From Prevotella communis (GTDB lineage: Bacteria > Bacteroidota > Bacteroidia > Bacteroidales > Bacteroidaceae), in assembly GCF_022024115.1 (NCBI RefSeq), contig NZ_CP091792.1, forward strand, positions 62,001-126,000: a stretch of 64,000 nt of DNA, in the 5' to 3' direction. The notes under the pieces were generated by a model. The model worked only from the letters and a program-made list of their open reading frames with translations, had not been told where the DNA came from and made no database searches. Positions within the stretch are counted from its first letter, which is position 1; each line of letters starts with the position of its first letter. The position numbers and the translations under genes are program-made. Shown one piece after another: positions 9,374 to 59,082 of the stretch.

Positions 9374-9393
9374 ACGTTTGCTGTTTTTGATTG

Positions 9394-9401
9394 CAAAGAT
9401 A
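9394..9401 (-). promoter_or_regulatory. Promoter -7 element of the outer-membrane barrel gene
   Basis: TATCTTTG on the minus strand, 20 nt before the chosen ATG at 9373; it decides the start. Confidence 0.65.
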
Positions 9402-9470
9402 TGAAGAGATTGCCTGTTAGCCGAAAATACTTCCTGACATTTGTCTGACAATTGTCTGACAGATTTCTAT

Positions 9471-10136
9471 CTATCTGATTTTCAGGCTGTATGACTTTCC
9501 TCTGTCTGACTCGATTTTGAGGTCGGATTGTTCTTCTATGATGGGTTTCAGTCGTCGGATCAGCGTGTAGAGTGTCTCGCTGGCATCGGGTTTCTTGGGC
9601 CAGAGGGCATCACATATCTCTGCTTTCGACAGCTGATGTGAGGGTGACTGCCACAGCATTTCCATCAGTTGCTGCTGCATGGGGGTCAGTTTTACTTCGC
9701 TGCCCTTAGCATTGACAAATCTTCCTTCTTGCAGGGCCAGACCGCCATACAGTCCTAATACAGACAGTCGTCTGTGCTGATACAGACCGAACAGTCCCCA
9801 CAGCAGTGCCATCGACCAGAGAATCATCGAAGGACGCTGGTCAGAGAGTGAGAGAATCGTCGCTGTTGATACCTGTGGCCGCGGACGGAATCCTTTCTTG
9901 GTGTCTACAGCCAGAACAGCATTTCCTCTCAATCCTTCTATTTGCAGATGATTGTTGAACACCTGAATCGTATCAGCGCTGATAACGTCCGACTGCTGTT
10001 CTTCCAGAGCCTTGGCCAGTGCCTGGTTCATATCGGCAGTCACCAGCACCTCCGTTGCCTTATAGCTGTTCAGGCTCATCATGCCCGAAGCGATTGTCAG
10101 TGCGAGAAACACTACTCCTACATATCGTTGTTTCAT
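9471..10136 (-). CDS. Membrane-anchored OmpR/PhoB-type winged-helix regulator with reversed (C-terminal) DNA-binding domain
   Basis: 221 residues. An N-terminal transmembrane helix (VGVVFLALTIASGMMSL) leads to a periplasmic segment of about 75 residues, a second helix (SMILWSMALLWGLFGLY, about 103-119) returns to the cytoplasm, and residues 145-221 form a Trans_Reg_C winged helix (KLTPMQQQLMEMLW, AEICDALWPKKPDASETLYT, LIRRLKPIIE, RGKSYSLKIR). ToxR and CadC carry the DNA-binding domain at the N-terminus, so the layout here is the reverse. It could sense a periplasmic signal and directly control the adjacent barrel gene, whose promoter lies 70 nt past its stop. No promoter word is clear upstream. 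Confidence 0.8.
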   Translation of the reverse strand: MKQRYVGVVFLALTIASGMMSLNSYKATEVLVTADMNQALAKALEEQQSDVISADTIQVFNNHLQIEGLRGNAVLAVDTKKGFRPRPQVSTATILSLSDQRPSMILWSMALLWGLFGLYQHRRLSVLGLYGGLALQEGRFVNAKGSEVKLTPMQQQLMEMLWQSPSHQLSKAEICDALWPKKPDASETLYTLIRRLKPIIEEQSDLKIESDRGKSYSLKIR

Positions 10137-10200
10137 TGTTGTGAATTAGAACATCTGTGATGATAGCCTCGGTCGCTTGCTTATGTTGTTTCAGTTTCTT

Positions 10201-11673
10201 TTATCCAAAGAATTCGCCGTCGCCCTGCTGGTCGTAGCTGCTGCCGTCGAAGCAGTGGGTGCAGACTTGGCTCTTGGGCAGGCCGATAGACTCGATGAGG
10301 TCCTCGATATGAGCGAACTTCAGGGAGGTGAGACCCAAGCGGCGGGCAATCTCCTCTACCATGCGCTTATATTCAGGTGAGTCGGTCTTGGCATACTGGT
10401 CGAGCTTGGCCTTGTCGTCGCCCTCGAAATCGCGGATGATACGACGGGTGATGAGTTCCAGGTCGCTCTTACTGTTGGTGAAACCAATAAACGGACAGCC
10501 ATAGACCAGGGGAGGACAAGAGATACGTACGTGTACCTCCTTGGCGCCGTTCTGTATGAACTCGCGGGCATTGTCGCGCAACTGTGTGCCACGCACGATA
10601 CTATCGTCGCAGAACACCACGCGCTGGTCCTTCAGGAGGGCTGCGTTGGGAATCAGCTTCATCTTGGCCACGAGGTCACGACGACTCTGGTTGCCAGGCG
10701 TAAATGAGCGAGGCCATGTAGGCGTATATTTCAGTACGGCACGCTTGTAGGGAATGCCAGAACCTTCAGCATAGCCCAGGGCCATACCTACGCCAGAATC
10801 GGGGATACCGCAAACGAGGTCGGCCTCGATATCGTCTTTCTCACCCATCATACGTCCGTTTTTCTCACGAACATACTCGGTGTTGATACCTTCATAGTTG
10901 GATGCGGGGAATCCGTAGTAAACCCACAGGAACGAGCAGATCTGACAGCGCTTGAAGGCTGGCTGCAGTACCTCGAAACCATCGGCCTTGAGGCGTACAA
11001 TCTCGCCAGGACCCAGGTCGCGCACGGGCTTATAGTCCAGATTGGGGAAACTGGTGGTCTCGCTACTTACGGCATGCGCCTTGACACAGTCGTCTGTGCC
11101 GATGGGCGAGAGCTGATGCGTCTCCTTCTTACCAATCACGATAGGTGTGCGTCCCAGTACGTCGCGCGCAGCAATGATACCATCTTCTGTAAGAATCAGC
11201 ATGGAGCATGAGCCCTTGATCTTACGGTATACCATGTTGATACCCTCAACGAAGGTGGAACCCATATTAATGATAAGTGCCACCAACTCTGTCTGATTCA
11301 GGTTGTTGGCACTTTGTTCGCTGAGGTGCATGCGCTGGGCAAGCAGTTCATCGGCAATCTCGCGCAGGTTGTTGATCTTAGCAACAGTCACCACGGCATA
11401 ACGGCCCAGATGTGAGTTGATGATGATTGGCTGAGGGTCGGTGTCGCTGATAACACCCAGTCCCTGATTACCACAGAAATCATGGAGTTCGTCCTCGAAC
11501 TTTGAGCGGAAATAATCGCGTTCTAGAGAGTGGATACTACGGCTAAAGCCTTTCTCCTTGTCGAAGGTCACAAGACCTGCTCGTTTAGTACCAAGATGTG
11601 AATTGTAGTCTGTGCCGTAAAACAAATCGTTTACGCAGTCACGTGTGGAAATGGTTCCGAAAAATCCGCCCAT
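10201..11673 (-). CDS. purF: Amidophosphoribosyltransferase homologue (PurF family) lacking Cys at position 2
   Basis: 490 residues. The C-terminal phosphoribosyltransferase domain is complete, with the PRPP loop RVVFCDDSIVRGTQLRDN, and the N-terminal Ntn-hydrolase-like domain is recognisable (GTDYNSHLGTKRAGLVTF, INNLREIADELL). PurF makes phosphoribosylamine from PRPP and glutamine, the first committed step of purine synthesis. The protein starts MGGFFGTISTRDC instead of the canonical MCGI/V, so the N-terminal nucleophile cysteine needed for glutaminase activity is missing; the nearest Cys is residue 13. It may use ammonia, be regulatory, or be a paralogue of a normal PurF elsewhere. It is transcribed alone from a TACCTTTG promoter. 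Confidence 0.85.
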   Translation of the reverse strand: MGGFFGTISTRDCVNDLFYGTDYNSHLGTKRAGLVTFDKEKGFSRSIHSLERDYFRSKFEDELHDFCGNQGLGVISDTDPQPIIINSHLGRYAVVTVAKINNLREIADELLAQRMHLSEQSANNLNQTELVALIINMGSTFVEGINMVYRKIKGSCSMLILTEDGIIAARDVLGRTPIVIGKKETHQLSPIGTDDCVKAHAVSSETTSFPNLDYKPVRDLGPGEIVRLKADGFEVLQPAFKRCQICSFLWVYYGFPASNYEGINTEYVREKNGRMMGEKDDIEADLVCGIPDSGVGMALGYAEGSGIPYKRAVLKYTPTWPRSFTPGNQSRRDLVAKMKLIPNAALLKDQRVVFCDDSIVRGTQLRDNAREFIQNGAKEVHVRISCPPLVYGCPFIGFTNSKSDLELITRRIIRDFEGDDKAKLDQYAKTDSPEYKRMVEEIARRLGLTSLKFAHIEDLIESIGLPKSQVCTHCFDGSSYDQQGDGEFFG

Positions 11674-15122: not shown

Positions 15123-16124
15123 ATGATTATCAGAAAGTCAATAATGAAACTGGGTGTAAAATTACTAATCGGTGTGATTCTCTGTGCTGTTGCCAGTGCA
15201 TGTATGTCGAAATTTGACAAGGGTGGCAGCGCCTATGTGGTGCGTCCATATATCAAGGATGGCTATTATACTGATGGCACACTGTATTTCGAAATTGATA
15301 AGACAGAAGCTATTCTGATTGGTACGGCAGAGAAGGTACGTGAGATTGTGATACCTGATGCTGTGGGTATCAATGAGGTGGATTATCCGCTGACGAAGAT
15401 TCAGAATCTGGGTGTGTTTGATAAGGAGGAATACGAGACAACGAAGCGTCCCAATGGCAATGATGTGCTGACATCGCTGGTCATAGGCGGCAATGTGAAG
15501 TCGTGGGGCGAGACGGTGTTTTTCACGGATTATTACGAGACTTATAGTGATGGTGAGGACCTGGCACGTCGCTTCCCTCGTCTGGAGAATATCTATGTGA
15601 AGGCTGGCAATCCTGTCTACGACTCACGCAACAACTGTAATGCGATAATCAAGTCCGAGAATCGTGAGCTGTATCTGGGTGGTAAGAATACGGTGGTGCC
15701 CGAGGGCGTTGAGAAGATTGGCGCTTCTGCCTTTCGTGACTGTGAGGGCTTGAAGAGTATCTCTTTCCCCAAGACGCTGGACGTCATTGGTGCCTATGCT
15801 TTCTCAGGTAGTCATCTGCAGACATTGACCCTTCCTGAGAACCTGGCATACGTTGGTCAGGAGGCATTCTATGGTTGTGACTCCCTGCTCACTGTCTCCT
15901 TGTATTGCAGTAGTGTCGTCATAGAACAGAAGGCTTTCAAAAAATGCGCATTGCTGAAGGAAGCTGACAGTGAGGTGAGATGCTATACGCCTTATATCTC
16001 TGTACCATCACCATCAAAGGTGTTTGACGAAGGATACAACTGTCTGATGATTCCTAAAGGGCAACGCTCGTCGTTTAACGGCTGGGAGAAATGTTTCCTG
16101 ACGATAAAGGAAATGGAGAAGTAA
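15123..16124 (+). CDS. BspA-like leucine-rich-repeat lipoprotein
   Basis: 333 residues. The N-terminus is a lipoprotein signal with lipobox AVASAC (Cys 27 from this start, 20 from the alternative ATG at 15144). Residues 170-280 contain LRR_5-type units: EGVEKIGASAFRDCEGLKSI, then LDVIGAYAFSGSHLQTLTLP and LAYVGQEAFYGCDSLLTVSL. Surface LRR proteins of this class in oral and gut Bacteroidetes bind host or bacterial surfaces. The protein should be anchored in the outer membrane. It stands alone and ends in a long palindrome shared with the convergent symporter gene. Confidence 0.85.
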   Translation: MIIRKSIMKLGVKLLIGVILCAVASACMSKFDKGGSAYVVRPYIKDGYYTDGTLYFEIDKTEAILIGTAEKVREIVIPDAVGINEVDYPLTKIQNLGVFDKEEYETTKRPNGNDVLTSLVIGGNVKSWGETVFFTDYYETYSDGEDLARRFPRLENIYVKAGNPVYDSRNNCNAIIKSENRELYLGGKNTVVPEGVEKIGASAFRDCEGLKSISFPKTLDVIGAYAFSGSHLQTLTLPENLAYVGQEAFYGCDSLLTVSLYCSSVVIEQKAFKKCALLKEADSEVRCYTPYISVPSPSKVFDEGYNCLMIPKGQRSSFNGWEKCFLTIKEMEK

Positions 16125-48778: not shown

Positions 48779-48801
48779 AAAGTGAATAGTGAATAGTGAA
48801 A
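48779..48801. repeat. GTGAATA word repeat between PLP genes
   Basis: AAAGTGAATAGTGAATAGTG, two to three 8-nt units. Confidence 0.5.
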
Positions 48802-48815
48802 AATTTGCTTCCGCT

Positions 48816-50015
48816 ATGAGTATACAATACGATTTCGATAAAATTATAGACCGTACGGGCAGTGGCGACCTGAAGCACGAAGTGCTGCAAGAGCGCTATG
48901 GCCGCAGCGACCTGCTGCCCCTGTGGGTGGCCGACATGGATTTTGAGACACCCCGTTTCATTACGGATGCGCTGCGCCAGCGACTGGAGCACTCGCTCTT
49001 TGGCTACACGGTGGTACCCGATGCGCTGTGGACCAGCATCACTCAGTGGATTCAGGACCACCACCAGTGGGAGGTGAGACGTGAGTGGCTCACCTATATA
49101 CCTGGCATCGTGAAGGGCATCGGTATGGCTGTCAACGTGTTTGTGAAGGAGGATGAGAAAGTGATTATCCAGCCACCCGTATATCACCCCTTCCGACTGA
49201 CGCCTGAGGGCAACGGACGTAAGGTGGTGTATAACCCGTTGAAAGAAGTCAACGGCACCTATGAGATGGACTTCGAACAATTGGCCGAGGTCGTCGACGA
49301 CAAGTGCCGCCTGCTGATTCTGAGTAATCCGCACAACCCTGCCGGTATCTGCTGGTCCAGGGAGACGCTGCAGCGCCTGGCCCATTTCTGCTATGAGCAC
49401 CATATCATTGTGATATCCGACGAGATACATGCGGATATGGCACTCTTTGGCCATCAGCACGTGCCCTTCGCTTCTGTGAGCGATGAGGCTGCCCAGATCA
49501 GCATCACCTTTGGTGCCCCGTCAAAGACGTTTAATATCGCCGGCATCGTGAGCAGCTATGCCATCGTGCCCAACGACTCGCTGCGCCGTCGGTTCTACAC
49601 CTGGCTGGAGGCCAACGAGCTCAACGACCCGCCACTCTTCTCGCCTATCGCCACCATTGCGGCCTATACGCAGCAGGGTGAGGACTATCGTAGGCAGATG
49701 CTCGGCTATATCGAGGAGAATATCCGCTTCGTAGAGGACTACTGTCGCGAGCATCTGCCAGGCATAAAACCCTGGCGTCCTCAGGCTTCGTTCCTGGTGT
49801 GGCTCGACTGTCGCGACTTGGGACTCAGTCACGATGCACTCGTAGACCTCTTTGTCAACCGTGCCCATCTGGCCCTGAACGACGGGGCGATGTTCTTTGC
49901 AAAACAAAGCGGTAATGACGGCTCTGGCTTCATGCGTCTCAACGTCGGCACACCCCGTGCTATCCTCCGTCAGGCGCTGGAGCAGTTGCGAGCGGCAGTC
50001 TCTCAGAATGTGTAG
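48816..50015 (+). CDS. MalY/PatB-type cystathionine beta-lyase (aminotransferase fold)
   Basis: 399 residues. The N-terminus IQYDFDKIIDRTGSGDLKHE and LPLWVADMDFETPRFITDAL is a MalY/PatB hallmark; GIVKGIGMAVNVF, ILSNPHNPAGICWSRETL, SDEIHADMALFGH and FGAPSKTFNIAGIVSSYAIV (PLP Lys) follow in order. It cleaves cystathionine to homocysteine, pyruvate and ammonia, complementing the two enzymes upstream. ATG at 48816 is used; an in-frame GTG lies in the word repeat at 48789. The gene overlaps the convergent radical SAM gene by 13 nt. Confidence 0.92.
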   Translation: MSIQYDFDKIIDRTGSGDLKHEVLQERYGRSDLLPLWVADMDFETPRFITDALRQRLEHSLFGYTVVPDALWTSITQWIQDHHQWEVRREWLTYIPGIVKGIGMAVNVFVKEDEKVIIQPPVYHPFRLTPEGNGRKVVYNPLKEVNGTYEMDFEQLAEVVDDKCRLLILSNPHNPAGICWSRETLQRLAHFCYEHHIIVISDEIHADMALFGHQHVPFASVSDEAAQISITFGAPSKTFNIAGIVSSYAIVPNDSLRRRFYTWLEANELNDPPLFSPIATIAAYTQQGEDYRRQMLGYIEENIRFVEDYCREHLPGIKPWRPQASFLVWLDCRDLGLSHDALVDLFVNRAHLALNDGAMFFAKQSGNDGSGFMRLNVGTPRAILRQALEQLRAAVSQNV

Positions 50016-51211
50016 TGCATCACGTTGGCAGGCGCCCTGTCGTTGTCCAGCTCCTGTTTCATAAACGCGAAATAGGGGGCTGAGTGGTCAAAGAACTGTC
50101 GATAGCCGGCGCATAGCCAGTTCAGTCCAGGGTTGCCGTAACGGTCCTTCATGAATCGGTTTCTTGGACATTCTCCATGACATATATTCAAGTGTTTGCA
50201 TTCGCGGCATTGCTGAGGCAGTGTCGCTTTTTTATTGATGCCAAAGGCCGTTTGCCGTGGGCCGTAGAGCATCTCCGTGAGCGTCTGCTGGCGGATGTTG
50301 CCCAACCGGTATTCTGGGAATACGAAGTGGTCGCAGCTGTACAGGTCGCCGTTGTACTCCATCACACCGGCATGACCGCAACTCTCAGCCATGGCGCATA
50401 CACCAGGCGCTACGCCTGCATAGTTGGCCAGTGTGGCGTCAAACAACTGTATGAAATACGTGCCTACATCCTGCCGTACCCATTCGTCGAATATCTCACA
50501 AAGGAATCGTCCCCATTGCCCGGGCGTGACCGAGAAAGGAGCCAGCGACAGCGCCTCCTCATCGGCCAGCGATGCCAGATGCCGGCCGTCCTCGTGGCCC
50601 TTGATACGTTCCACCACGGGCGTAAACTGGATATAGTGACAGCCTATCTCCTTGAAGAAATGATAGAATGCCAGCGGCGCCTCCGCATTCAGGTTGTTGA
50701 CCACCGCCATCGCGTTCCAGTCCACCCCGTGCCTGTTGAGTATCTCAATGCCCCTCATCACCTGATGGAACGTTGGTTCTCCGCCCCGACTCCTGCGATA
50801 GGCATCGTGAAAAGGCTCGGGACCGTCTATCGAAACGCCCACCAGCATGTTGTGACGCTTGAAGAATGCCGCCCATTCATCGTTAATCAGCGTACCGTTG
50901 GTCTGAAAACAGTTGTTGATAGTCTTACCCCTGCCATACTGCTGTTGCAGACGGATAGCCTTCTCGTAGAAACTGATGGGACGCAGCAGTGGTTCTCCTC
51001 CATGCCAGGTAAAGAGAATCTCGTTCATGGTCTGCGCCTCGATATACTGACGTGTGAACCGCTCCAGCACCTCGTCGCTCATCACCTGACGCGCGTCGTC
51101 CCTATACAGATGCTTCTTCTCCGTATAGTAGCAGTATTCGCATGTCATATTACATGATGCGCCTACAGCCTTTGTCATCACATACATGGGATGTGAGAAA
51201 GGGGCAATCAT
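50003..51211 (-). CDS. Radical SAM/SPASM protein of the anaerobic sulfatase-maturase type
   Basis: 402 residues. CNMTCEYCYY carries the CxxxCxxC cluster motif; FTWHGGEPLLRPISFYEKAI and GVSIDGPEPFHDAYRRSRGG are conserved in anSME enzymes. The C-terminal SPASM region has further Cys groups (GVCAMAESCGHAGVMEYNGD, YSCDHF, QQCRECKHLNICHGECPRNR). anSMEs oxidise a Ser or Cys of sulfatases to formylglycine. No sulfatase gene is in the window; the divergent neighbour is a CotH-type protein with a Gly/Phe-rich tail. Substrate therefore open. Confidence 0.9.
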   Translation of the reverse strand: MIAPFSHPMYVMTKAVGASCNMTCEYCYYTEKKHLYRDDARQVMSDEVLERFTRQYIEAQTMNEILFTWHGGEPLLRPISFYEKAIRLQQQYGRGKTINNCFQTNGTLINDEWAAFFKRHNMLVGVSIDGPEPFHDAYRRSRGGEPTFHQVMRGIEILNRHGVDWNAMAVVNNLNAEAPLAFYHFFKEIGCHYIQFTPVVERIKGHEDGRHLASLADEEALSLAPFSVTPGQWGRFLCEIFDEWVRQDVGTYFIQLFDATLANYAGVAPGVCAMAESCGHAGVMEYNGDLYSCDHFVFPEYRLGNIRQQTLTEMLYGPRQTAFGINKKATLPQQCRECKHLNICHGECPRNRFMKDRYGNPGLNWLCAGYRQFFDHSAPYFAFMKQELDNDRAPANVMHYTF

Positions 51212-51242
51212 ATTACTACAGTTCCTTTCTTGTTAGTAGTTG

Positions 51243-51250
51243 CAAAAATA
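51243..51250 (-). promoter_or_regulatory. Promoter -7 element of the radical SAM gene
   Basis: TATTTTTG on the minus strand, 31 nt before the ATG at 51211. Confidence 0.55.
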
Positions 51251-51327
51251 CTAGAAGATTTGGATTCCACAAAATTTTTCTATGGAAACCTTCCCGTTAG
51301 GTTAAAAAACAATAAATTAGCCTCCGA

Positions 51328-51335
51328 TAATTTTG
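51328..51335 (+). promoter_or_regulatory. Promoter -7 element of the CotH-type gene
   Basis: TAATTTTG, 54 nt before the ATG at 51390. Confidence 0.6.
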
Positions 51336-51389
51336 ACTTTTACCTCTCTTTCTGAGTCTGATAAATATAAACTAAAAATCTTTTTCCTA

Positions 51390-52841
51390 ATGATACGATT
51401 ATTGACAATCATAGTTTTGCTGGCCTTTGCAAATATGATGCAGGGCAAGAACGATGTAGAGATGATTACCATCAATGTTGACTCACCACTCAATGCTCAG
51501 CAGAAAGTAACGGCCCACATGAAGGCAGGCCACTACGATGGTACCATCGGCATAAAGTTGCGTGGCAACAGTTCGCTGTCTTTCAATCAGAAGAAATACA
51601 CCATTGAACTGCGCGATGGCGAAGGCAAGGAAATAAATGCTCCCCTGCTGGGTATGCCGGCCCATAGCGACTGGGTGTTGCTGGCTCCTTATAACGACGT
51701 ATCTATGGTGCGCGATCCTTTGGCTTTCCAACTGTGGCGCGACATGGGACACTGGGGGCCACGCACGCGGATGGTGGAACTGACGCTCAATGGCGAGTAT
51801 CGCGGCATCTATATCCTCTCAGAGGCTATCAAGCGGGGGGAACATCGCGTAAACATCAGCAAACTGAAAAAGAGTGATGTGGAGGGACGTGATGTCACGG
51901 GTGGTTATTTGCTCCGTATCGACACCTTTGACGAGGATGATGCTACCTTTAAGTCGAAGGTGCCTGGCATCGGCGATGGCATCATGACCAGTGAGATTAC
52001 TTGGTCGTGTATCTATCCAAAGAAAAAGAAACTACAGCCAGAGCAGCTGGACTATATCCAGCGTTTCATTGATACGATGGAGCAAGTCATCCAGTCAGAC
52101 TATTTTGCCGACCCTAAGCGTGGCTATGCCAAGTATATAGATGTGCCGTCGTTTGTGGACTATTTCATCCATACCGAACTGAGTCTGAATGCTGATGGTT
52201 ATAAGCGGAGTGCCTATTTTTATAAGGAGAAGCAGCATGCTGACGGCACTGGCGGCAGACTGGTGGCCGGACCTGTTTGGGACTATAATCTGGCATACGG
52301 CAATTGTAATTTCTGCAATGCCAATAATATTGAGGCTTGGTGCTTTGAAGGTGGGAATACCAATCCGACACCTGCTTTCTGGCAGCGCTTGCTTCAGGAT
52401 CCAGCTTTCCGTAAGGCGGTAAAGGTACGCTATCAGGCTCTAAGGAAATCGGTGTTGAGCAACAAGGCCATCAACAGTTATATTGATCGTCATGCCAAAT
52501 TATTGGCTCCCTATATAGATCGTCACTTCGAACTATATCCAGAGCTCTTTGGTACAGACGCTCCATCAGCACCGGGCGGTTTTCCTGGTTTTGGCGGCTT
52601 CCCACCTATGGGGCAGATGCCTGCTTTCGGTGGAGGAAATATGATAAGTTGGTTTGCAGCCTATCGCGTGCAGTCTTATGATGAAGAGATTCGAATCCTT
52701 AAACAGTGGTTGGCCGACCGTTTGTCTTTTCTTGATCGTAATATCGCTCGTTTCGATAAAGACTGGCAGCCCCGCATCCAGCAACCTAGGGAAATCAAAG
52801 CAGCTCCGTTTGGCGGCTTTGGCGGTTTCGGTGGCAAATAA
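51390..52841 (+). CDS. CotH-type atypical protein kinase family protein, exported, with Gly/Phe-rich tail
   Basis: 483 residues with signal peptide (MIRLLTIIVLLAFANMMQG). CotH landmarks: IKLRGNSSLSFNQKKYTIEL, HSDWVLLAPYNDVSMVRDPL, YRGIYILSEAIKRGEHRVNI, VWDYNLAYGNCN. In spore-coat CotH the fold phosphorylates Ser of secreted proteins; Bacteroidetes homologues are poorly known. Two low-complexity parts stand out: APGGFPGFGGFPPMGQMPAF around 414-433 and the terminal PFGGFGGFGGK. ATG at 51390 gives the signal peptide directly. It is divergent from a radical SAM maturase. Confidence 0.85.
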   Translation: MIRLLTIIVLLAFANMMQGKNDVEMITINVDSPLNAQQKVTAHMKAGHYDGTIGIKLRGNSSLSFNQKKYTIELRDGEGKEINAPLLGMPAHSDWVLLAPYNDVSMVRDPLAFQLWRDMGHWGPRTRMVELTLNGEYRGIYILSEAIKRGEHRVNISKLKKSDVEGRDVTGGYLLRIDTFDEDDATFKSKVPGIGDGIMTSEITWSCIYPKKKKLQPEQLDYIQRFIDTMEQVIQSDYFADPKRGYAKYIDVPSFVDYFIHTELSLNADGYKRSAYFYKEKQHADGTGGRLVAGPVWDYNLAYGNCNFCNANNIEAWCFEGGNTNPTPAFWQRLLQDPAFRKAVKVRYQALRKSVLSNKAINSYIDRHAKLLAPYIDRHFELYPELFGTDAPSAPGGFPGFGGFPPMGQMPAFGGGNMISWFAAYRVQSYDEEIRILKQWLADRLSFLDRNIARFDKDWQPRIQQPREIKAAPFGGFGGFGGK

Positions 52842-52871
52842 AAGAGGGCACCCGAATCTCTCCGGATGCCC
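52836..52871 (-). terminator. Terminator after HU/smalltalk unit 2
   Basis: GGGCATCCGG/CGGGTGCCC on the minus strand (one mismatch, loop of 7) followed by TCTTTTATTT; also overlaps the end of the convergent CotH gene. Confidence 0.75.
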
Positions 52872-52896
52872 TTGGCTTCTTGCGGTCTGCAATTTT

Positions 52897-52995
52897 TCAC
52901 GCCATACAACTAGTCACTCCCAGTGCCGTTGCGATGGCCGACAGCACACTGATGGCTGTCTGAATCACGAATTTCCATACTGCTTTGTTCTTCAT
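52897..52995 (-). CDS. Smalltalk micro-protein (copy 2)
   Basis: 32 residues: MKNKAVWKFVIQTAISVLSA then IATALGVTSCMA. It differs from copy 1 (5548-5643) by E5A, T14A, I17V and one extra Ala. It follows the second HU-like gene on the same strand and precedes a terminator, as in copy 1. Function unknown. Confidence 0.87.
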   Translation of the reverse strand: MKNKAVWKFVIQTAISVLSAIATALGVTSCMA

Positions 52996-53050
52996 GGCTT
53001 AGAATTTTAATGTTTTAGAATTTTAATGTTTCATGTTTAATGTTTAATCC

Positions 53051-53533
53051 TTAGGGATTCACCGGTCCGCCGCCGTTGTTCCCTGACTCCGTGTTTCCGC
53101 TCTCAGGGTTGTCCTCGCCGCCCACCAGCGTGTTGACGTCGCGGAACTGTGCCTGCGAGGTGAGTATCTGGGTGGCATACTCGCTCTCCTTCGACTTGTC
53201 GCCGAGGAACTTCAGGCGCACGGCCTTGATGTTGGAGGCGGTGAACTCCTTAGGGTCGGCCTCGCCCTTGGTGGCAATAGAGAGGTAGAAGGTGCCCAGC
53301 CCGTTGAGCTTGATCTTGTGACCCTCGAGCAGCAGCTCGTTGAAGCAGTTGACGAACTTCTCTATCACGCCCTTCACCACGTCGGAAGTGAAGATAGAGC
53401 CGTGCTTCTGGATGTGTCGGCAGAGGTCGTTGGTGTCGAGCGTGTCGACGGATACCAGTCGGGCGTAGGTCTTCTGATAGCCAGCGTTCTTCTTGTTCTG
53501 ATTGATGTACTTACGAATGTTCAGTCGTGTCAT
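53051..53533 (-). CDS. HU/IHF-like DNA-binding protein with Gly/Asn-rich tail, copy 2
   Basis: 160 residues. HU-type core: DTNDLCRHIQKHGSIFTSDV, KGVIEKFVNCFNELLLEGHK, IKLNGLGTFYLS. The tail NPESGNTESGNNGGGPVNP echoes the tail of copy 1. The N-terminal stretch (TRLNIRKYINQNKKNAGYQK) is Lys/Asn-rich. It is followed by a smalltalk gene and lies back to back with the palindrome/iteron array and the primase-type module at 53757-58544, for which it may be the architectural DNA-bending protein. Confidence 0.9.
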   Translation of the reverse strand: MTRLNIRKYINQNKKNAGYQKTYARLVSVDTLDTNDLCRHIQKHGSIFTSDVVKGVIEKFVNCFNELLLEGHKIKLNGLGTFYLSIATKGEADPKEFTASNIKAVRLKFLGDKSKESEYATQILTSQAQFRDVNTLVGGEDNPESGNTESGNNGGGPVNP

Positions 53534-53612
53534 TGTTGTGTGTGTTTTAAATGGTTAATACTCTTGTTTGTGTCTCTCATGATTGACGATGCGCATCTTT
53601 TCAAATGCATTG

Positions 53613-53620
53613 CAAAGGTA
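53613..53620 (-). promoter_or_regulatory. Promoter -7 element of HU copy 2
   Basis: TACCTTTG on the minus strand, 79 nt before the ATG at 53533. Confidence 0.65.
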
Positions 53621-53756
53621 CAACAAATATCTGACGGTGGCAAAAAAGGGTAGGGGTGGAGTGTGAAAATCTGTTAACAGAAAGCAACTGCCTTATTTGC
53701 TCCCACTAACTGTTTTATTTGCCCTGAGCAAGTGGCGCGATTGCCCCAGACGCGAT

Positions 53757-53923
53757 ACTCTGTGACGTGTGATTTTGTGACATTAAGCCCCTCCCGTATT
53801 TTCACCCCCAACCGCCTCTACCTATACTATAAATTATATAATATTATAATATTATATAATTCTAATAACCACCTCCTGACTTTGTGAACCACCTTAATGT
53901 CACAAAGTCAAAAGTCACAAAGT
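53757..53923. repeat. Iteron / AT-palindrome / inverted iteron array, locus 2 (possible replication origin)
   Basis: A 31-bp word made of two 15-16 bp iterons (ACTTTGTGACATTTG + ACTTTGTGACATTAAG) occurs at 53757-53787 (27 of 31 matching) and inverted at 53893-53923 (30 of 31). Between them lies a 30-bp perfect palindrome. A third copy lies at 58514-58544. The region 53621-53978 has no plausible gene. Confidence 0.8.
53832..53861. repeat. Perfect 30-bp AT-only palindrome
   Basis: AATTATATAATATTA followed by its exact reverse complement TAATATTATATAATT; it would melt or extrude easily. Confidence 0.9.
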
Positions 53924-53978
53924 CTACTTTTACATAAATAAGTAAGCCAAAAATGGTACACAATTCGAAAATATTTTG

Positions 53979-53986
53979 TATCTTTG
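53979..53986 (+). promoter_or_regulatory. Promoter -7 element of the two-gene unknown unit
   Basis: TATCTTTG, 29 nt before the ATG at 54016. Confidence 0.65.
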
Positions 53987-54015
53987 CCACTTACAAAAAG
54001 TTAAGGTAAAAAGAT

Positions 54016-54681
54016 ATGGAAACACAGATATTGAATCTAAAAGAGCCGTACGAATACATTCACTGCAACGGCGAGGTTGGTAAACATATTGCCACGCTGA
54101 TAGTATATGAGACCGTAAAGGGCGAGGATGGCTCCTACAAGCTGGAGTCGCACAGTCACCCGATTGTGAAATATTGGAATGCGCCTGGAGGTGTGGTATG
54201 GAATAATGCGGAGCTGACCGATTGCGACGTGCTATGTAGTGACGATGATAAAGAGGTAGATATTTTCTTCTTCTTCCGCATGGTTCGTCGTAATTGGGGG
54301 ATCGAGAACGAAACGGACTATTTAGGGAAAGCTAGGTCGCTATATGAGACTCTACTCGACAATGAGATTAAATTCATGGATTTAAGTGCTATCCCCAAGT
54401 TTCGCGGCACATTGCTTATCAGGGAATATAATCATGAGATATTACTCGTCTTTGAGGAGAAAGAAGGAAAAATTCTCTGTCGTGACGACGGTAATAGTCA
54501 GTATCCAATCTATTGTGAGGCTGAGACACGCGAGGAGTTGGAAGATAAGTTGGCCGACTTGTGGTATGAATGGGAGCATTTCACCGACCGTCGCGTAAAC
54601 ATCCACTTCAAGACGGATCAGAAGGAATACGAAGAAATAATCAATCAGATTGAACTTGATCGCCTAACCTGGGATCAATGA
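54016..54681 (+). CDS. Unknown 221-residue acidic protein, first gene of accessory module
   Basis: I do not recognise the family. The protein is rich in Glu, Asp, Trp and Tyr (GEVGKHIATLIVYETVKGED, PGGVVWNNAELTDCDVLCSD, ADLWYEWEHFTDRRVNIHFK), has no signal peptide or membrane helix, and is probably a soluble cytoplasmic protein with mixed strands and helices. Its stop overlaps the start of the next gene (ATGA), so the two are translationally coupled. It lies directly beside the palindrome/iteron array with its own promoter, which suggests a role in the same module. Confidence 0.75.
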   Translation: METQILNLKEPYEYIHCNGEVGKHIATLIVYETVKGEDGSYKLESHSHPIVKYWNAPGGVVWNNAELTDCDVLCSDDDKEVDIFFFFRMVRRNWGIENETDYLGKARSLYETLLDNEIKFMDLSAIPKFRGTLLIREYNHEILLVFEEKEGKILCRDDGNSQYPIYCEAETREELEDKLADLWYEWEHFTDRRVNIHFKTDQKEYEEIINQIELDRLTWDQ

Positions 54682-55325
54682 GAATAGACATTCCCACGGA
54701 AGGGATTGAGGAACTGATAGCTTCGTTGGGATTCGATGATGCAAGAAATGTGCTGACGGGCAGAGCCATGGGTGCATTACAACACAGCATCGATTCTTTG
54801 ATGGAGCAGTATGCCGAGCGACGTGAAGCTCGGCAGTGTGGTCGTATTGTCGGTTCTCCAGCATCGGCCAACAATCAGTCGCGTCCATCGGAGCTGCCAC
54901 CCCCAGATCGTCCTGGACTGAACTACTTTGCCCCGAAGAGGAATCTTCAGGATTTGCTTGCAATGGAGTGGTTCGACAAGGTGAGCATGGACAAGAAACG
55001 GTTCACAGTGGCCTGGCGTAATCAGCTGATAGAAGACCTGATGGCATCAGATTGTCGTGATGAAGTTGCTGTGGCTTGGGCTAACAAAGACTTGAGGCTA
55101 CAGGTGAAGGGCCACGTGATGGGTGCGCTCTCAACGGCAGGCGTGCTTAAAAAGAGTGCTCTGGCCGTTGCGCGTATGTATTATGGTACGGGCGCGGATA
55201 ATACAAAAGAAGCGAAGACGCTGGCCAAATATATGGGCGACAGCCGGAAAGTGTATTATACGGACTGGATTGTAGAATACGTAAACAACTCTGTCGATAA
55301 TCCGGTTCGGCCAATCGAAAATTAG
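54678..55325 (+). CDS. Unknown 215-residue protein coupled to the preceding gene
   Basis: No family recognised. An N-terminal acidic helix region (IEELIASLGFDDARNVLTGR, HSIDSLMEQYAERREARQCG) is joined by a Pro-rich linker (RPSELPPPDRPGLNYFAPKR) to a basic helical C-terminal domain (AWANKDLRLQVKGHVMGALS, LAVARMYYGTGADNTKEAKT, YMGDSRKVYYTDWIVEYVNN), which could bind DNA or protein. A 4-nt overlap with the previous gene and a strong terminator after it define a two-gene transcript. Confidence 0.75.
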   Translation: MRIDIPTEGIEELIASLGFDDARNVLTGRAMGALQHSIDSLMEQYAERREARQCGRIVGSPASANNQSRPSELPPPDRPGLNYFAPKRNLQDLLAMEWFDKVSMDKKRFTVAWRNQLIEDLMASDCRDEVAVAWANKDLRLQVKGHVMGALSTAGVLKKSALAVARMYYGTGADNTKEAKTLAKYMGDSRKVYYTDWIVEYVNNSVDNPVRPIEN

Positions 55326-55367
55326 TGAAATAGGGCTGTTTTCAATCGAAAACGGATTTTAAGCGAT

Positions 55368-55408
55368 AAGCGGGTATTTTCAATGATGAGGATACTCGCT
55401 TTTTTTTA
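55368..55408 (+). terminator. Terminator of the two-gene unknown unit
   Basis: AAGCGGGTAT/ATACTCGCTT (10-bp stem, one G-T), loop of 14, then seven T. Confidence 0.8.
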
Positions 55409-55503
55409 TTTGTAATTCTTTGATTATCAGTAGCCTTTTTGTTTTATCTACAAATAATTATGAAAAACATCTCCACACAAAAATGTCGTCACCAATCGAA
55501 TCC

Positions 55504-55511
55504 TACCTTTG
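55504..55511 (+). promoter_or_regulatory. Promoter -7 element of the primase unit
   Basis: TACCTTTG. About 17 nt after it a leader hairpin GTCGCC/GGGCGAC (55529-55547) starts, followed by the tiny ORF at 55565. Confidence 0.65.
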
Positions 55512-55528
55512 CACCAGAAATCTTAAAG

Positions 55529-55547
55529 GTCGCCTGAAGGGGGCGAC
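55529..55547 (+). promoter_or_regulatory. Leader hairpin before the tiny ORF
   Basis: GTCGCCTGAAGGGGGCGAC: six-bp G/C stem, 17 nt upstream of the ATG at 55565; possibly translation control or mRNA protection. Confidence 0.5.
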
Positions 55548-55564
55548 GTAAAGCAAAATAGAGT

Positions 55565-55693
55565 ATGTCAAAACGTAATGATTTGAAAGCGGCTTGGCGC
55601 GGCATTCGTGCCAACCAGGCAAAACAGCAGATGAATAAGGTAAATCATCTGGGAGTGATGAACTCAAAAAATAATTCATACCTAATTTATTAA
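55565..55693 (+). CDS. Tiny basic protein (42 residues) at the head of the primase unit
   Basis: MSKRNDLKAAWRGIRANQAK followed by QQMNKVNHLGVMNSKNNSYL and IY. It is strongly basic at the start and helix-prone, as in leader or small DNA/RNA-binding peptides. It has a promoter, a leader hairpin and an ATG at a reasonable distance, but no homologue I can name. It ends 85 nt before the next gene. It could equally be a non-coding leader with a chance ORF. Confidence 0.45.
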   Translation: MSKRNDLKAAWRGIRANQAKQQMNKVNHLGVMNSKNNSYLIY

Positions 55694-55778
55694 TCTGGGC
55701 GAAGTGAGCTGAAGAAATCTCATGAGTTAAAGCTGGCCAGCGTTTCCAAAGGCTTCTTCACTCGCAACAACCCAACAA

Positions 55779-56234
55779 ATGAAACCTACATTTAAGAAGC
55801 AACTTTTAGTTCAGAACGTCCAGATGGACGGCAGTATCAACTTCACGACCAATGGCGATATCAACGTATATCCCTGCCCTTGGGAGTCGGATAAAACGGT
55901 CACCGACGGAAGACGTATTAAGTACCGTGCTGGCATCGAGGTGGATGCCGACGGACGTACCAGCGTGAAGCGCTATAACATAGGAAGCAAGGGACCGCTG
56001 CACGAGACGCTCTACGAGACAGCCCACGGAGCCGTGAAGATGACAAGACCTATGTTTGAGGCAACACCAAGCGGTCCACGTCGCCGACTGGATCGTGAGT
56101 ATGTTTACGTGACGTTCAAATTCCCCAAGAAGTACGGACGTGACATCATTGAGACACTATACCGTCAGGAGAAGGAGCAGATTTTAGGATTTATTCAGAG
56201 TAGAAAGGAGGAAACCGTATGGAATCAGCAGTAA
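55779..56234 (+). CDS. Unknown 151-residue protein overlapping the primase gene
   Basis: Family not recognised. It is soluble, strand-rich and basic (QLLVQNVQMDGSINFTTNGD, INVYPCPWESDKTVTDGRRI, KYRAGIEVDADGRTSVKRYN) with a C-terminal helix (YGRDIIETLYRQEKEQILGF). Its last 16 nt overlap the start of the BT4734/VirE-like gene, indicating translational coupling and a partner role in replication or DNA binding. Confidence 0.75.
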   Translation: MKPTFKKQLLVQNVQMDGSINFTTNGDINVYPCPWESDKTVTDGRRIKYRAGIEVDADGRTSVKRYNIGSKGPLHETLYETAHGAVKMTRPMFEATPSGPRRRLDREYVYVTFKFPKKYGRDIIETLYRQEKEQILGFIQSRKEETVWNQQ

Positions 56235-58522
56235 TCAGAACCATGAAATTCACATGCATTGGCAAGGGGCACGGTGCGCCTTGCACACCCGCCACCAAGG
56301 AGGACTGGGAGGCGTTAAGAAAGCAGCCGTGGCTGGCACAGATGTGCGCACGTATAGAGAAAGGTGAGGAGGAGTTGAAGCATCGCCTGCCGGTGTGGAC
56401 ACCTCATTGCGCGGAGTTTAAGGACAACCACAGGGCAATTGCCGATGCCGTCCGTCCGCTCAACCGACTGATGTTGGACTTTGACGAGAAAGGGCATACG
56501 GAGGACATCATGCAAAAGCTTGGGCTTTTGCAAAGTGAAAAGGGAATAGCCCTCCCTGTCTTACTCATTGAGGAATCGGTGCGTCGTGGCACGCATGTGC
56601 TGGTGGAATTGCCCGATGGGATGACGCCTGAAGAGGCTCAGGAACTGATGAAAGAGGCCACGGGATTTGCGCCCGATGCCGCCGTGAAGGACGTGTCGAG
56701 ATGCATCTATATGGTGCCCGAGGACCATACCAAATATGTCAACCCAAAGTTGTTTGCAGTGAATCAAGTGGACAGGTTGCTTGATTCAGGTCTGCGACCG
56801 AATTATGAACATGTCCCCATTGATTTACCCCGCCTGGAGTTCAAAGGCATCCCTTATTCATCTATCATTGCCGAGTGGTGGCGACGCAACGACGGTGAGC
56901 CGGCTGAGGGCGAGCGCAACGTGAAGCTGCACAAACTGGCTGTGAACCTGCGCGCTATCTGCGACAATAAAAAAGAGGTGCTGATGCAGGTGATGCCAAG
57001 GTTTGGACTCACGGACACGGAACTGAAATCGGTCGTTGACTCGGCTTGTAAGGAGGAGCCCAAGGGCGTCTCGAAGGTGATGCAGGGGATTCTTGATAGT
57101 TTAGAGTTTAGAGATGATAGTGGAGAGTTTACTACCGCCATTGATGAATCCGCTGATGGGAGTGCGGAAGCAAACTCTAAACTCTACACTCTCCACTCGA
57201 AACTGCCCATCGGCCTAAAGGAATCATTGGTGGGTGTGCCTGTCTCGATGCACATGCCCGTGCTCTGCGGCATCATGCCTATCGCGGCGGCCTATGCCGA
57301 CCAGGTGACGGTGGAGTATTGCGACGGCAACACGCACCGGTTGGGACTGATGTCGATTATCCGCGGTGAACAAGCGTCGAACAAGTCGGTGGTGAAGAAT
57401 GCCGTGGACCTCTGGAAGCGTCAGCTCGACGAAGAGGATGCTCTGTCGCGTAAGCGTGAGGAGGAGTGGAAGGAGCGCAAGAAAGGCAGGAAGGCCAATG
57501 AGAAAGCGCCTGAAGACCCACACGTATTGATTCGCGTGGTACCCGTCACGGTCTCGTGCTCTACGCTCCTGAAACGATTCAAGAATGCGCAGGGACACAC
57601 GATTTTCTCCTTCGGTGAGGAACTGGATACGCTGCGTAAGACCAACGGTGCCGGCTCGTGGTCGTCGAAGTACGACATCTACCGTCTGGCGTTCGACAAT
57701 GGTGAGTGGGGTCAGGATTACAACTCGGACGCGGCAGAGAGCGGTGTGGTGAATGTGGCCTACAACTGGACGCTGCTGGGTACCAACGGTGCGCTGCGTA
57801 AATGTTTCAAGGCCGACAACGTGGAGAATGGCCTGTCGAGTCGTGTGCTCGTGGCCGAGATGCCCGATGCGTCGTTCTCGAAGATGCCTAAATTCAAGAA
57901 GCGTTCGGCCGAGGATGAGGCGCGTATCCAGCAGGCCGTCAGCCGTCTGCGCAGCTTCTCAGGACTCGTAGACACGCCCCGTCTCCGCAAGGCTATCGAG
58001 GCTTGGGTAGAGGAGAAGCGCGTAGAGGCTGCCAAGGACATAGACCACGTGAAGGATACGTATCGCAAGCGTGCGGCGGTCATCGGCTTCCGCTGCGGGG
58101 TCATCTACTATATGTTGGAGACCCACCCCCAGCCCCTCCCTGTGAGGGATGGGAGTGGTCAGACTCAAGTAAAAGAACTATCTACGCCCCTCCCTCACAG
58201 GGAGGGGAAGGGGGAGAGTCGAAACTGTATCAAGTTCGCGGTGATGATGGCTCAGTATTGTCTGGACCAGCAGATGAAAGCCTTTGGCGAGGCACTGGAG
58301 AGTCAGTTTGTGGATGCCCGCGACGAGTGCATCCGCTATGGTAGTAACCACTCCGTCTTCGACCAGCTGCCACCATCGTTCACGATGGACGACCTGCGGG
58401 CCCTGAAGCGCGGCTTCTGCAGTGAGGCGGGTCTCAGGAAAATCATCTCACGCTGGTATCGCGACCACTGGATTGAGAAGACCGACAAGACGCATTGGAA
58501 GAAAGGGAATGTAACTTTGTGA
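56219..58522 (+). CDS. BT4734/VirE-N-like primase-type protein (DUF3987-type helicase/primase)
   Basis: 767 residues; an inner ATG at 56243 (MKFTCIGKGHG) is an alternative start. The N-terminal part has the BT4734-like/VirE-N features: AVRPLNRLMLDFDEKGHTED, with the DxD of archaeo-eukaryotic primases, then RRGTHVLVELPDGMTPEEAQ and DVSRCIYMVPEDHTKYVNPK. The middle part, GIMPIAAAYADQVTVEYCDG and MSIIRGEQASNKSVVKNAVD, has a P-loop-like GEQASNKS; GEELDTLRKTNGAGSW resembles DUF3987 proteins. It contains two in-frame repeat insertions (57099-57207 and 58121-58217), and its stop codon TGA belongs to the third 31-bp iteron word. Confidence 0.8.
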   Translation: MESAVIRTMKFTCIGKGHGAPCTPATKEDWEALRKQPWLAQMCARIEKGEEELKHRLPVWTPHCAEFKDNHRAIADAVRPLNRLMLDFDEKGHTEDIMQKLGLLQSEKGIALPVLLIEESVRRGTHVLVELPDGMTPEEAQELMKEATGFAPDAAVKDVSRCIYMVPEDHTKYVNPKLFAVNQVDRLLDSGLRPNYEHVPIDLPRLEFKGIPYSSIIAEWWRRNDGEPAEGERNVKLHKLAVNLRAICDNKKEVLMQVMPRFGLTDTELKSVVDSACKEEPKGVSKVMQGILDSLEFRDDSGEFTTAIDESADGSAEANSKLYTLHSKLPIGLKESLVGVPVSMHMPVLCGIMPIAAAYADQVTVEYCDGNTHRLGLMSIIRGEQASNKSVVKNAVDLWKRQLDEEDALSRKREEEWKERKKGRKANEKAPEDPHVLIRVVPVTVSCSTLLKRFKNAQGHTIFSFGEELDTLRKTNGAGSWSSKYDIYRLAFDNGEWGQDYNSDAAESGVVNVAYNWTLLGTNGALRKCFKADNVENGLSSRVLVAEMPDASFSKMPKFKKRSAEDEARIQQAVSRLRSFSGLVDTPRLRKAIEAWVEEKRVEAAKDIDHVKDTYRKRAAVIGFRCGVIYYMLETHPQPLPVRDGSGQTQVKELSTPLPHREGKGESRNCIKFAVMMAQYCLDQQMKAFGEALESQFVDARDECIRYGSNHSVFDQLPPSFTMDDLRALKRGFCSEAGLRKIISRWYRDHWIEKTDKTHWKKGNVTL
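57099..57207. repeat. In-frame inverted word repeat inside the primase-type gene
   Basis: TAGTTTAGAGTTTAGAGATG and GTGGAGAGTTTAC at the left; AAACTCTAAACTCTACACTC and TCCACTCGAAAC at the right, complementary over about 25 nt with a loop of 45. Read as DSLEFRDDSGEF and NSKLYTLHSKLP. Confidence 0.65.
58121..58217. repeat. C-rich palindromic element inside the primase-type gene
   Basis: ACCCACCCCCAGCCCCTCCC begins the left part and CCCCTCCCTCACAGGGAGGG the right part; it gives strong G/C hairpins and is read as THPQPLPVRDG and STPLPHREGKG. The left part matches the element at 12326. Confidence 0.8.
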
Positions 58523-58544
58523 CATTTGACTTTGTGACATTAAG
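58514..58544 (+). repeat. Third copy of the 31-bp double-iteron word, over the primase stop codon
   Basis: ACTTTGTGACATTTG plus ACTTTGTGACATTAAG. It is inverted relative to the copy at 53893-53923 (one mismatch), so the pair brackets 4.6 kb holding the five module genes. Confidence 0.9.
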
Positions 58545-58583
58545 CACATTAAAGATTAAACATTAAACATTAAACATTAAAAT
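58545..58583. repeat. ATTAAAC word repeat
   Basis: CATTAAAGATTAAACATTAA then ACATTAAACATTAAA, 8-nt units; similar words lie at 1709-1735 and 53000-53050. Confidence 0.6.
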
Positions 58584-58590
58584 TCTGAAT

Positions 58591-59082
58591 ATGGAACTGA
58601 TATTAACACGCATAGCAAAACGCAAGACATATACGATAGGACGTCTTGCAATCGTAGAACGAGTAGATGATGAGTATCTGGCAGGGGAGAAGGTGTTGAA
58701 TTTTTGCGATACGCTCGAACCACCTGTGATAGAAATGAAAACACAAGTGACGCAATCGGCCGTGCTCCGTTCGCCTAAGAAGGCTGAGAGCCTGAAGCCC
58801 TTTGCCATCCCCGAAGGCCGTTACGCGGTAGTCATTACGTGGAGTCCTAAATTTAAGATGTGGCTCCCGGTACTGCTCGGCGGACCCGATTTCAACCGGC
58901 TGTTCAAGGGTATCCGCATCCACATGGGCAATAGTGCTGCCGACACCGCAGGCTGTATCCTCGTAGGGCGCAATCAGATGGTGGGCCGCCTGCTGGAATC
59001 GCGCAAGTGGCTCTATGAACTCAAACAGAAAATAGTGGAAGCCAAGGATCGTGGGGAGCCCGTATGGCTCACAATCAAGTAG
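58591..59082 (+). CDS. DUF5675 family protein
   Basis: 163 residues. The pattern SLKPFAIPEGRYAVVITWSP, FKGIRIHMGNSAADTAGCIL and VGRNQ is typical of DUF5675, where His and Cys residues in HxGN...GCIL recall L,D-transpeptidase-like or amidase sites. Proteins of this family often sit next to VirE/primase and HU genes in Bacteroidetes. No signal peptide. Activity is not established. Its last 8 nt overlap the convergent tcdA gene. Confidence 0.8.
   Translation: MELILTRIAKRKTYTIGRLAIVERVDDEYLAGEKVLNFCDTLEPPVIEMKTQVTQSAVLRSPKKAESLKPFAIPEGRYAVVITWSPKFKMWLPVLLGGPDFNRLFKGIRIHMGNSAADTAGCILVGRNQMVGRLLESRKWLYELKQKIVEAKDRGEPVWLTIK

Follow-up and report, generated by a model that had tools for sequence, protein, structure and literature searches.

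Why would a bacterial chromosome carry three arrays of a short repeated word and a perfect palindrome of adenine and thymine (AT) beside a gene encoding a primase-type protein? The question is raised by a locus in a 64,000-nucleotide stretch of the Prevotella communis chromosome (contig NZ_CP091792.1, positions 62,001 to 126,000; hereafter the window), which is part of a genome of 3,567,699 bases. The locus looks like a small cassette, found in the chromosomes of Prevotella-type gut bacteria, that carries its own candidate replication start. A putative initiator and an iteron origin would together form the replication core of a family of chromosomal mobile elements in Prevotella and its close relatives, an explanation to which a probability of about 0.7 is assigned. 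It is supported by the conservation of the module, its geometry, the presence of perfect palindromes of differing sequence in one fixed position, agreement of the word among three sites, and covariation of the word with the predicted recognition helix of the initiator.

Organization of the module

The core of the module consists of the following features, with coordinates of the window:

53757..53787, + strand: iteron array 1, two GTGAC units, end ATTAAG, aimed at the palindrome
53832..53861, no strand: perfect 30-bp AT-only palindrome, candidate melting or cruciform site
53893..53923, - strand: iteron array 2, convergent with array 1
56219..58522, + strand: candidate initiator (primase-helicase, 767 amino acids)
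58424..58462, + strand: predicted recognition-helix codons (residues 736-748; residues 740, 741, and 744 covary with the word)
58514..58544, + strand: iteron array 3, overlapping the stop codon of the primase

From left to right, the module comprises genes for a smalltalk-type peptide and an HU-HIG protein on the minus strand, array 1 (+), the palindrome, array 2 (-), two cargo open reading frames (ORFs), a gene encoding a protein of about 150 amino acids, the primase-helicase gene, array 3 (+), and a DUF5675 gene. Tandem direct repeats lie next to an AT-rich segment and beside the putative initiator gene, as in iteron origins.

An initial annotation of the window reported a 31-bp word in three copies. 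The copy in array 3 is exact and that in array 2 has one mismatch, and array 1, the most degenerate copy, has four among its 31 bases, with both GTGAC cores intact. With up to three mismatches allowed, the word matches the window twice, as compared to no match in 100 shuffles. The palindrome is where the annotation placed it and is the only perfect palindrome of at least 22 bp in the window, with a predicted DNA hairpin energy of -7 kcal/mol (z -3.6). The gene calls hold as described, except that the Pfam match of the primase is to DUF3987 (E-value 5e-7) and not to BT4734-like_N. The BT4734-type N-terminus that had been proposed for it is backed by profile comparison (probability 93%, E-value 3e-7).

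The candidate initiator appears to be composed of the BT4734-like primase N-terminus, an MCM-like AAA+/DUF3987 ATPase (approximately residues 326-690), and a predicted C-terminal winged helix (residues 712-766). The ATPase part appears to resemble MCM helicases. Candidate residues for the motifs hhhDhD, sxH, and hD of archaeo-eukaryotic primases (AEP) are conserved among 56 aligned initiators: D87, D89, H126, and K157 are present in at least 90%, and D153 and R161 in all. The BT4734-like_N family of Pfam gives no match in the window protein and a weak one in a related locus, L181 (E-value 0.009). A sequence search of the PDB with the initiator profile gave no match, nor did Foldseek alone at an E-value of up to 0.001.

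Three copies of the module are present in the host genome: that in the window, a second at 1.47-1.48 Mb (locus L031), and a third at 2.23-2.24 Mb (locus L032). The second and third have the same anatomy, but their words and palindromes differ from those of the window (palindromes of 38 bp each compared with 30). The three module palindromes are the only perfect ones of at least 22 bp in the window, L031, L032, and L040 (116.9 kb, 4 kb of it in duplicate). Ten places in the genome match the 13-bp unit of the arrays when one mismatch is allowed: five in the window module, three in the second module, and two isolated. The reversed pattern has three matches. The word is thus not common far from primase genes, which the initial annotation had named as a reason for abandoning its proposal. 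An octamer form, (GTNACNNN)3, is found four times in the genome: the second module holds three of these sites and the third module one, and the reversed pattern has none. Six more distant loci of the DUF3987/BT4734 type in the host genome (L033-L038) resemble the module in carrying a related initiator-type protein, but unlike it have neither a perfect AT palindrome of at least 24 bp nor a match to the array pattern.

Conservation of the layout among relatives

A scan of GTDB genomes identified 196 relatives of the initiator, and 80 loci were kept, picked by protein similarity and not by arrays. Together with the three host modules they form a set of 83 loci (1,419,651 bases). The record titles of the 80 fetched loci name Prevotella, Xylanibacter, Prevotellaceae, Bacteroidaceae, Bacteroidales, and Bacteroidia, and many are ruminant-derived. 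The layout that recurs over the set is an AT-only palindrome between two arrays pointing at it, cargo, the gene for the protein of about 150 amino acids, the primase-helicase, array 3, and DUF5675. A generic array pattern was built after the first loci had been seen, and its reversed form served as control. The array pairs that it detects are convergent in 38 cases, and none is divergent or parallel; all 59 arrays at the primase stop run in the direction of the gene. Elsewhere, outside the module, lie 17 of the 160 array matches, and the reversed control has 19 matches in all. A lone GTGAC array located 839 bp from a tRNA-Met gene and outside the module in two genomes (L046:886, L062:2843) is possibly a relic of another module.

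A perfect AT palindrome of 24-40 bp is present upstream of the initiator in 37 of the 83 loci and has 20 distinct sequences. The 23 palindromes of 30 bp represent seven sequences, which differ at 10 of 15 pairs. Because only perfect palindromes were counted, changes on both sides of the dyad follow from that choice; the relevant observation is that different perfect palindromes occupy the same place. The 80 fetched loci contain three other perfect palindromes of at least 22 bp, all 24 bp long and less AT-rich. Twelve more loci have a convergent array pair around AT-rich DNA; in five, the script detects a perfect palindromic core (16-20 bp), and others show imperfect inverted repeats when read by eye. 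In some of the remaining 34 the contig ends first. On this comparative sequence evidence, the arrays and the AT palindrome are parts of a conserved module and not a passive repeat.

Covariation of the iteron word with the winged helix

The repeated 5-mer varies among loci (GTGAC, GTCCC, GCCAC, GTAAC, and others), and the three sites share one 5-mer in 36 of the 39 loci readable at all three. The word at the palindrome equals that after the primase in 39 of 42 loci, compared with a mean of 13.6 and a maximum of 24 in 20,000 shuffles. Of all columns of the initiator, residue 741 predicts base 3 best, whether at the array next to the gene or at the palindrome far from it, and residue 744 does the same for base 2 at these two places. 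Base 1 is best predicted by residue 740 at the palindrome, and base 4 by residue 754 in the wing, with 744 close behind. At the post-primase site, the pairs of base 3 and residue 741 are G-K (36), G-Q (2), C-N (20), A-M (11), T-V (2), and A-V (1). A code in which K or Q corresponds to G, N to C, M to A, and V to T at base 3 fits 41 of 44 loci on the left of the palindrome, 45 of 47 on its right, and 71 of 72 after the primase. A tree of the initiator body (residues 205-700) with 72 rows requires a minimum of 24 changes of the word and 25 of residue 741.

The covariation suggests that the specificity of the initiator matches the sequence of its iterons, and the primase-helicase appears to recognize its site with a small number of residues, whose identity varies together with the bases of the word. 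The reading of the locus in the initial annotation as an origin with its initiator set gains support from the recurrence of arrays and palindrome beside the primase in dozens of loci and from the apparent tracking of the winged helix by the word.

Locus L041 (palindrome at 1248-1285, initiator at 8341-10584) is a chimera, in which the palindrome arrays have the word GCCAC but both the helix and array 3 belong to the GTGAC type. A near-identical initiator in L042 is accompanied by GTGAC at all sites. It is possible that L041 represents a word switch in progress.

Test of the code on held-out loci

With an E-value limit of 1e-200, the initiator is present in 17 of 60 genomes of the genus, the window's own included, with 0-3 copies per genome. 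The other 16 genomes provided 20 stretches, of which six were identical to loci already used and were dropped; the 14 new loci are at most 93% identical to any row used before. Three of them (L183, L185, L186) have no array of the GTNAC type at the stop, and the code is silent on L177, which has serine at position 741. Nine of the ten testable loci fit the code for base 3 and residue 741. The arrays of seven fitting loci were found by script (the helix of L182 was read by eye) and those of two by eye (L184, L187). At L175 and L180 the code performs better than the nearest neighbor, because their nearest initiator, that of L116, bears another word. L181, in which K741 is combined with leucine at 740, has the word AAGAC at each of its three sites. 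Inverted arrays of other words, as read by eye, flank the palindromes of L186, L185, and L178; therefore, the principle may extend beyond the GTNAC type.

Proposed function and points against it

From the arrangement of the module we infer binding, melting, and replication, roles for the HU-HIG protein and array 3, and mobility. The 767-residue protein would act as the initiator, with a primase-like part at its N-terminus, followed by an AAA+ helicase of MCM-like type and, at the C-terminus, a winged helix. The recognition helix of the protein may read the tandem iterons, in which base 3 covaries with residue 741, base 2 with residue 744, base 1 at the palindrome with residue 740, and base 4 with both residue 754 of the wing and residue 744. 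The two convergent arrays would hold initiators on both sides of the AT-only palindrome, which could melt and let the helicase load; the palindrome may extrude as a cruciform, to which HU-HIG might bind. Array 3, at the 3' end of the initiator gene, may serve as an additional binding site, with possible roles in pairing with the origin or in controlling copy number.

There is an even chance that a more detailed proposal is correct. In it, the modules are chromosomal replicons with a near one-residue-one-base code (at 741, K or Q for G, N for C, M for A, and V for T or A; at 744, M, T, or S for bases 2 and 4; at 740, R for G), the three sites switch their word together when the helix changes and so form a series of orthogonal origin-initiator pairs, the AT palindrome is the opening site, and the whole is an unnamed satellite-like or plasmid-like element of ruminant-gut Prevotella and relatives that has no recognized integrase. 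If so, the printed prediction that winged helices of mobile-element primases read origins would become a readable code, gut Bacteroidales would offer a natural set of origin-initiator pairs of differing specificity, and the neighborhood of HU-HIG, smalltalk, DUF3987, and DUF5675 genes would gain a function. The family would make the joint change of specificity in an initiator and three distant sites directly testable.

Several observations weigh against the preferred explanation. The palindrome is imperfect or unseen in 46 of the 83 loci. The three sites disagree in L041, L078, and L117, and L041, L116, and L117 do not obey the code. At the post-primase site, where only two loci lack G at base 1, the best predictor of this base is residue 546 and not 740. 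The code was set on the same loci that score its fit, so the held-out loci are its sole independent test; this test rests partly on reading by eye, and its misfit, L179, has V741 with A, also read by eye. Array 3 adjoins the winged-helix codons, and agreement there could reflect linkage alone; however, linkage cannot explain the fits of 41 of 44 and 45 of 47, because the palindrome arrays lie kilobases away. The tree of the initiator body is weak (of its 80 inner branches, 18 are starred), and although the independent pairs with support are concordant, they are too few for significance (4, 4, 3, and 2 pairs, p of 0.125 or more). A plasmid search with the initiator gave no match, a search of phage proteins gave two distant unannotated records of 21-25% identity, and in the three contigs from IMG/VR the initiator is within approximately 2 kb of the contig edge. 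No tyrosine recombinase (family PF00589) is encoded inside the window module or within 300 kb of it in the host genome, where serine recombinases were not searched, and the PF00589 gene nearest to the third module is 39 kb away. Pairs of modules in the same genome share a helix triple about as often as expected (2 of 11, against 2.5 expected), and divergence driven by incompatibility is accordingly unsupported.

Other genes, distribution, and possible mobility

The remaining features of the module and one neighbor are as follows:

48789-50015: aminotransferase, name assigned by eye
52897..52995, - strand: smalltalk-type small peptide, 32 amino acids, at the left end of the module, found by pattern search
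53051..53533, - strand: HU-HIG family DNA-binding protein, divergent from cargo and primase (Pfam PF18291, E-value 1.3e-21)
54016..54681, + strand: cargo ORF, 221 amino acids, without family match; related ORF in 13 of 83 loci
54678..55325, + strand: cargo ORF, 215 amino acids, without family match; related ORF in 6 of 83 loci
55779..56234, + strand: protein of about 150 amino acids, function unassigned, directly 5' of the primase; related ORF in 55 of 83 loci
58591..59082, + strand: DUF5675 protein, final gene of the module (Pfam PF18925, E-value 1e-23); related ORF in 64 of 83 loci

The HU-HIG protein clears the PF18291 cut-off (77.3 bits compared with 26.2), and a related ORF is present in 28 of the 83 loci. 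The counterpart of the smalltalk peptide in L031 matches NCBIfam NF033879 "smalltalk" (E-value 1e-12); that of the window was placed by pattern search only. Cargo between the palindrome and the initiator of the second module (L031:4979-6959) includes gene pairs with the sequence appearance of toxin-antitoxin systems, and the third module encodes a phage anti-repressor-type protein of the Rha/Ant kind (L032:7701-8456; PF09669, PF03374). The window module is preceded by genes for the aminotransferase, an anaerobic sulfatase maturase, and CotH, and followed by a ThiF-family gene, which we take to be TcdA.

Within the genus the initiator has a patchy distribution, and in the order it is rare, being found in 2 of 149 genomes at an E-value of up to 1e-60, one of them the window's own. 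A search of phage DNA gave no match. Among 29 TcdA loci of other genomes (L122-L150, with flanks of up to 1.5 kb), one, L141, has abutting aminotransferase and TcdA genes without the block 50003-59082. The identities of the abutting genes are 64% and 79%; therefore, L141 offers gene-order evidence, and not a junction, for the empty site that the initial annotation had proposed to look for. None of 14 longer TcdA stretches (L151-L164) has the aminotransferase or a close module beside TcdA. L151 and L152 keep the gene on the other side of TcdA, and L156 contains weak matches to HU (27%) and the primase (21%).

The ends of the module are near tRNA genes in several loci. Modules L043 and L046/L062 lie in opposite orientation beside a shared host segment with tRNA-Ser and tRNA-Met. 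The PF00589 match of L031 lies beyond a tRNA-Lys gene, and the similar module L060 has tRNA-Thr and tRNA-Gly there instead. The second module lies between two copies (89% alike) of a 35-bp sequence from the 3' end of tRNA-Lys (L031:1952-1986 and 15886-15920), the only such case among 11 tRNA-neighbor loci tested. It is not used as evidence of mobility, because a partial copy on the left and a full tRNA on the right do not fit simple integration.

Comparison with known replicons

The module looks as if it works like a replicon of phage-inducible chromosomal islands (PICI) or of satellite phage P4. The iterons of PICI differ between elements and match their Rep. According to part of one report, the origins of several Escherichia coli PICI always have two iteron sets flanking an AT-rich region, which is a possible melting site (PMC6092414). 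To that extent, the module resembles the pri-rep-ori unit of PICI and Staphylococcus aureus pathogenicity islands (SaPI), with initiator and primase and two iteron sets around an AT-rich region (PMC6092414). By contrast, the palindrome of the module is AT-only, the third array lies kilobases away at the initiator stop, and the ATPase looks MCM-like. PICI and SaPI have their own integrase and att sites, which were not found with the module in the host genome (no PF00589 match in the window module, the nearest to the third module 39 kb away, and the tRNA-Lys repeat only at L031; serine recombinases and other loci were not searched).

P4 has an alpha primase-helicase and the sites ori and crr; its replication requires two separated clusters of the same iteron in cis, the second being crr, and array 3 is placed like crr. 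Unlike P4, the module has a palindrome between convergent arrays. The excerpted account in PMC7145576 describes the initiating helicase and primase of P4 as fused in one protein, and the candidate initiator would likewise join primase and helicase. The module also resembles primase-helicase replicons of integrated elements (PrimPol-PV1 supergroup, BT4734-like family), with putative AEP-type motifs, a DUF3987 ATPase, and a predicted C-terminal winged helix; for mobile-element primases, DUF3987 and the C-terminal winged helix were predicted to be helicases and origin readers, respectively (PMC5862659, in the sections available). In those sections function is predicted only, and unlike here they give no origin or residue-base code. 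In the available text on Prevotella intermedia, a 188-bp repeat is described and no iteron-like repeats are reported near the Rep_3 gene of the second chromosome (PMC4755523); as a relative of the module arrays, the 188-bp repeat is set apart by length alone. The available part of PMC10434189 lists DUF3987 and smalltalk genes only as entries in expression tables. No description of the origin, palindrome, or code of the module was found in the open-licence PMC literature.

Alternative explanations

It is unlikely that the winged helix uses the arrays only to repress or activate the DUF5675 gene and the promoters of the divergently oriented HU and cargo genes, with the palindrome as a regulatory or structural spacer and no replication. 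The palindrome arrays of the window do lie between divergent HU and cargo genes, and initiators commonly autoregulate. However, in the second module a CotH gene, so called because its ORF clusters with the window CotH, separates HU from the palindrome, and array 3 stops 5 bp before the start codon of DUF5675, leaving no room for a promoter. Regulation would also leave the perfect palindromes of 20 sequences and the primase and helicase parts unexplained.

That the locus is a resident defence or domesticated system, sensing or sequestering invading DNA with HU-HIG, primase-helicase, and DUF5675 and using the arrays as docking sites, is quite improbable. Its patchy presence in 17 of the 60 genus genomes and its variable cargo would suit such a system, and a 2017 study reportedly tied the expansion of HU-HIG in Bacteroidetes to conflict with mobile elements. 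By contrast, a PADLOC scan of 10 proteins gave a match for only one, with an E-value of 0.009, and a resident sensor does not need an origin-like site.

The initial annotation also considered terminal inverted repeats, with arrays 2 and 3 as the ends of a transposable unit carrying cargo and primase. These arrays are inverted and have outer ends CTTAAT and ATTAAG, and a larger block including them is missing between the same neighbors in one relative. This explanation is nevertheless rated as very improbable, because array 1 and the palindrome recur together with arrays 2 and 3 but lie outside the unit that these two delimit; moreover, the block missing in L141 is 50003-59082 and not the array-to-array unit, and no family match names a transposase in the module. 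Passive short repeats, the main alternative of the initial annotation, have next to no chance of accounting for the module: heptamer arrays are dispersed through the host genome (ATTAAAC heptamers, 146 matches with up to three mismatches compared with 3 for the reversed pattern) and two adjoin the module, but the GTNAC arrays are nearly confined to modules, have a fixed place and orientation, and track the winged helix. The preferred explanation remains an initiator with its iteron origin.

Additional repeats

The ATTAAAC-type heptamers beside the HU and DUF5675 genes (53014-53053 and 58550-58589) are a different repeat from the iterons and were missed by the initial annotation. In style they are like the heptamers that surround the L185 and L186 palindromes. 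The initiator gene itself contains a pair of palindromic CCCCTCCCTGTGAGGG-type repeats in frame, at 58120-58220 of the window and L031:14727-14827. The pair is alike in these two paralogues, which are 79% identical overall, and absent at that place in the third. Cross-matches suggest that CCCCTCCCTGTGAGGG-type repeats occur at other positions of other DUF3987 genes. Inverted AGAGTTTAGAG words are also present in frame in the initiator gene, at 57095-57193 of the window, where the two paralogues differ in sequence.

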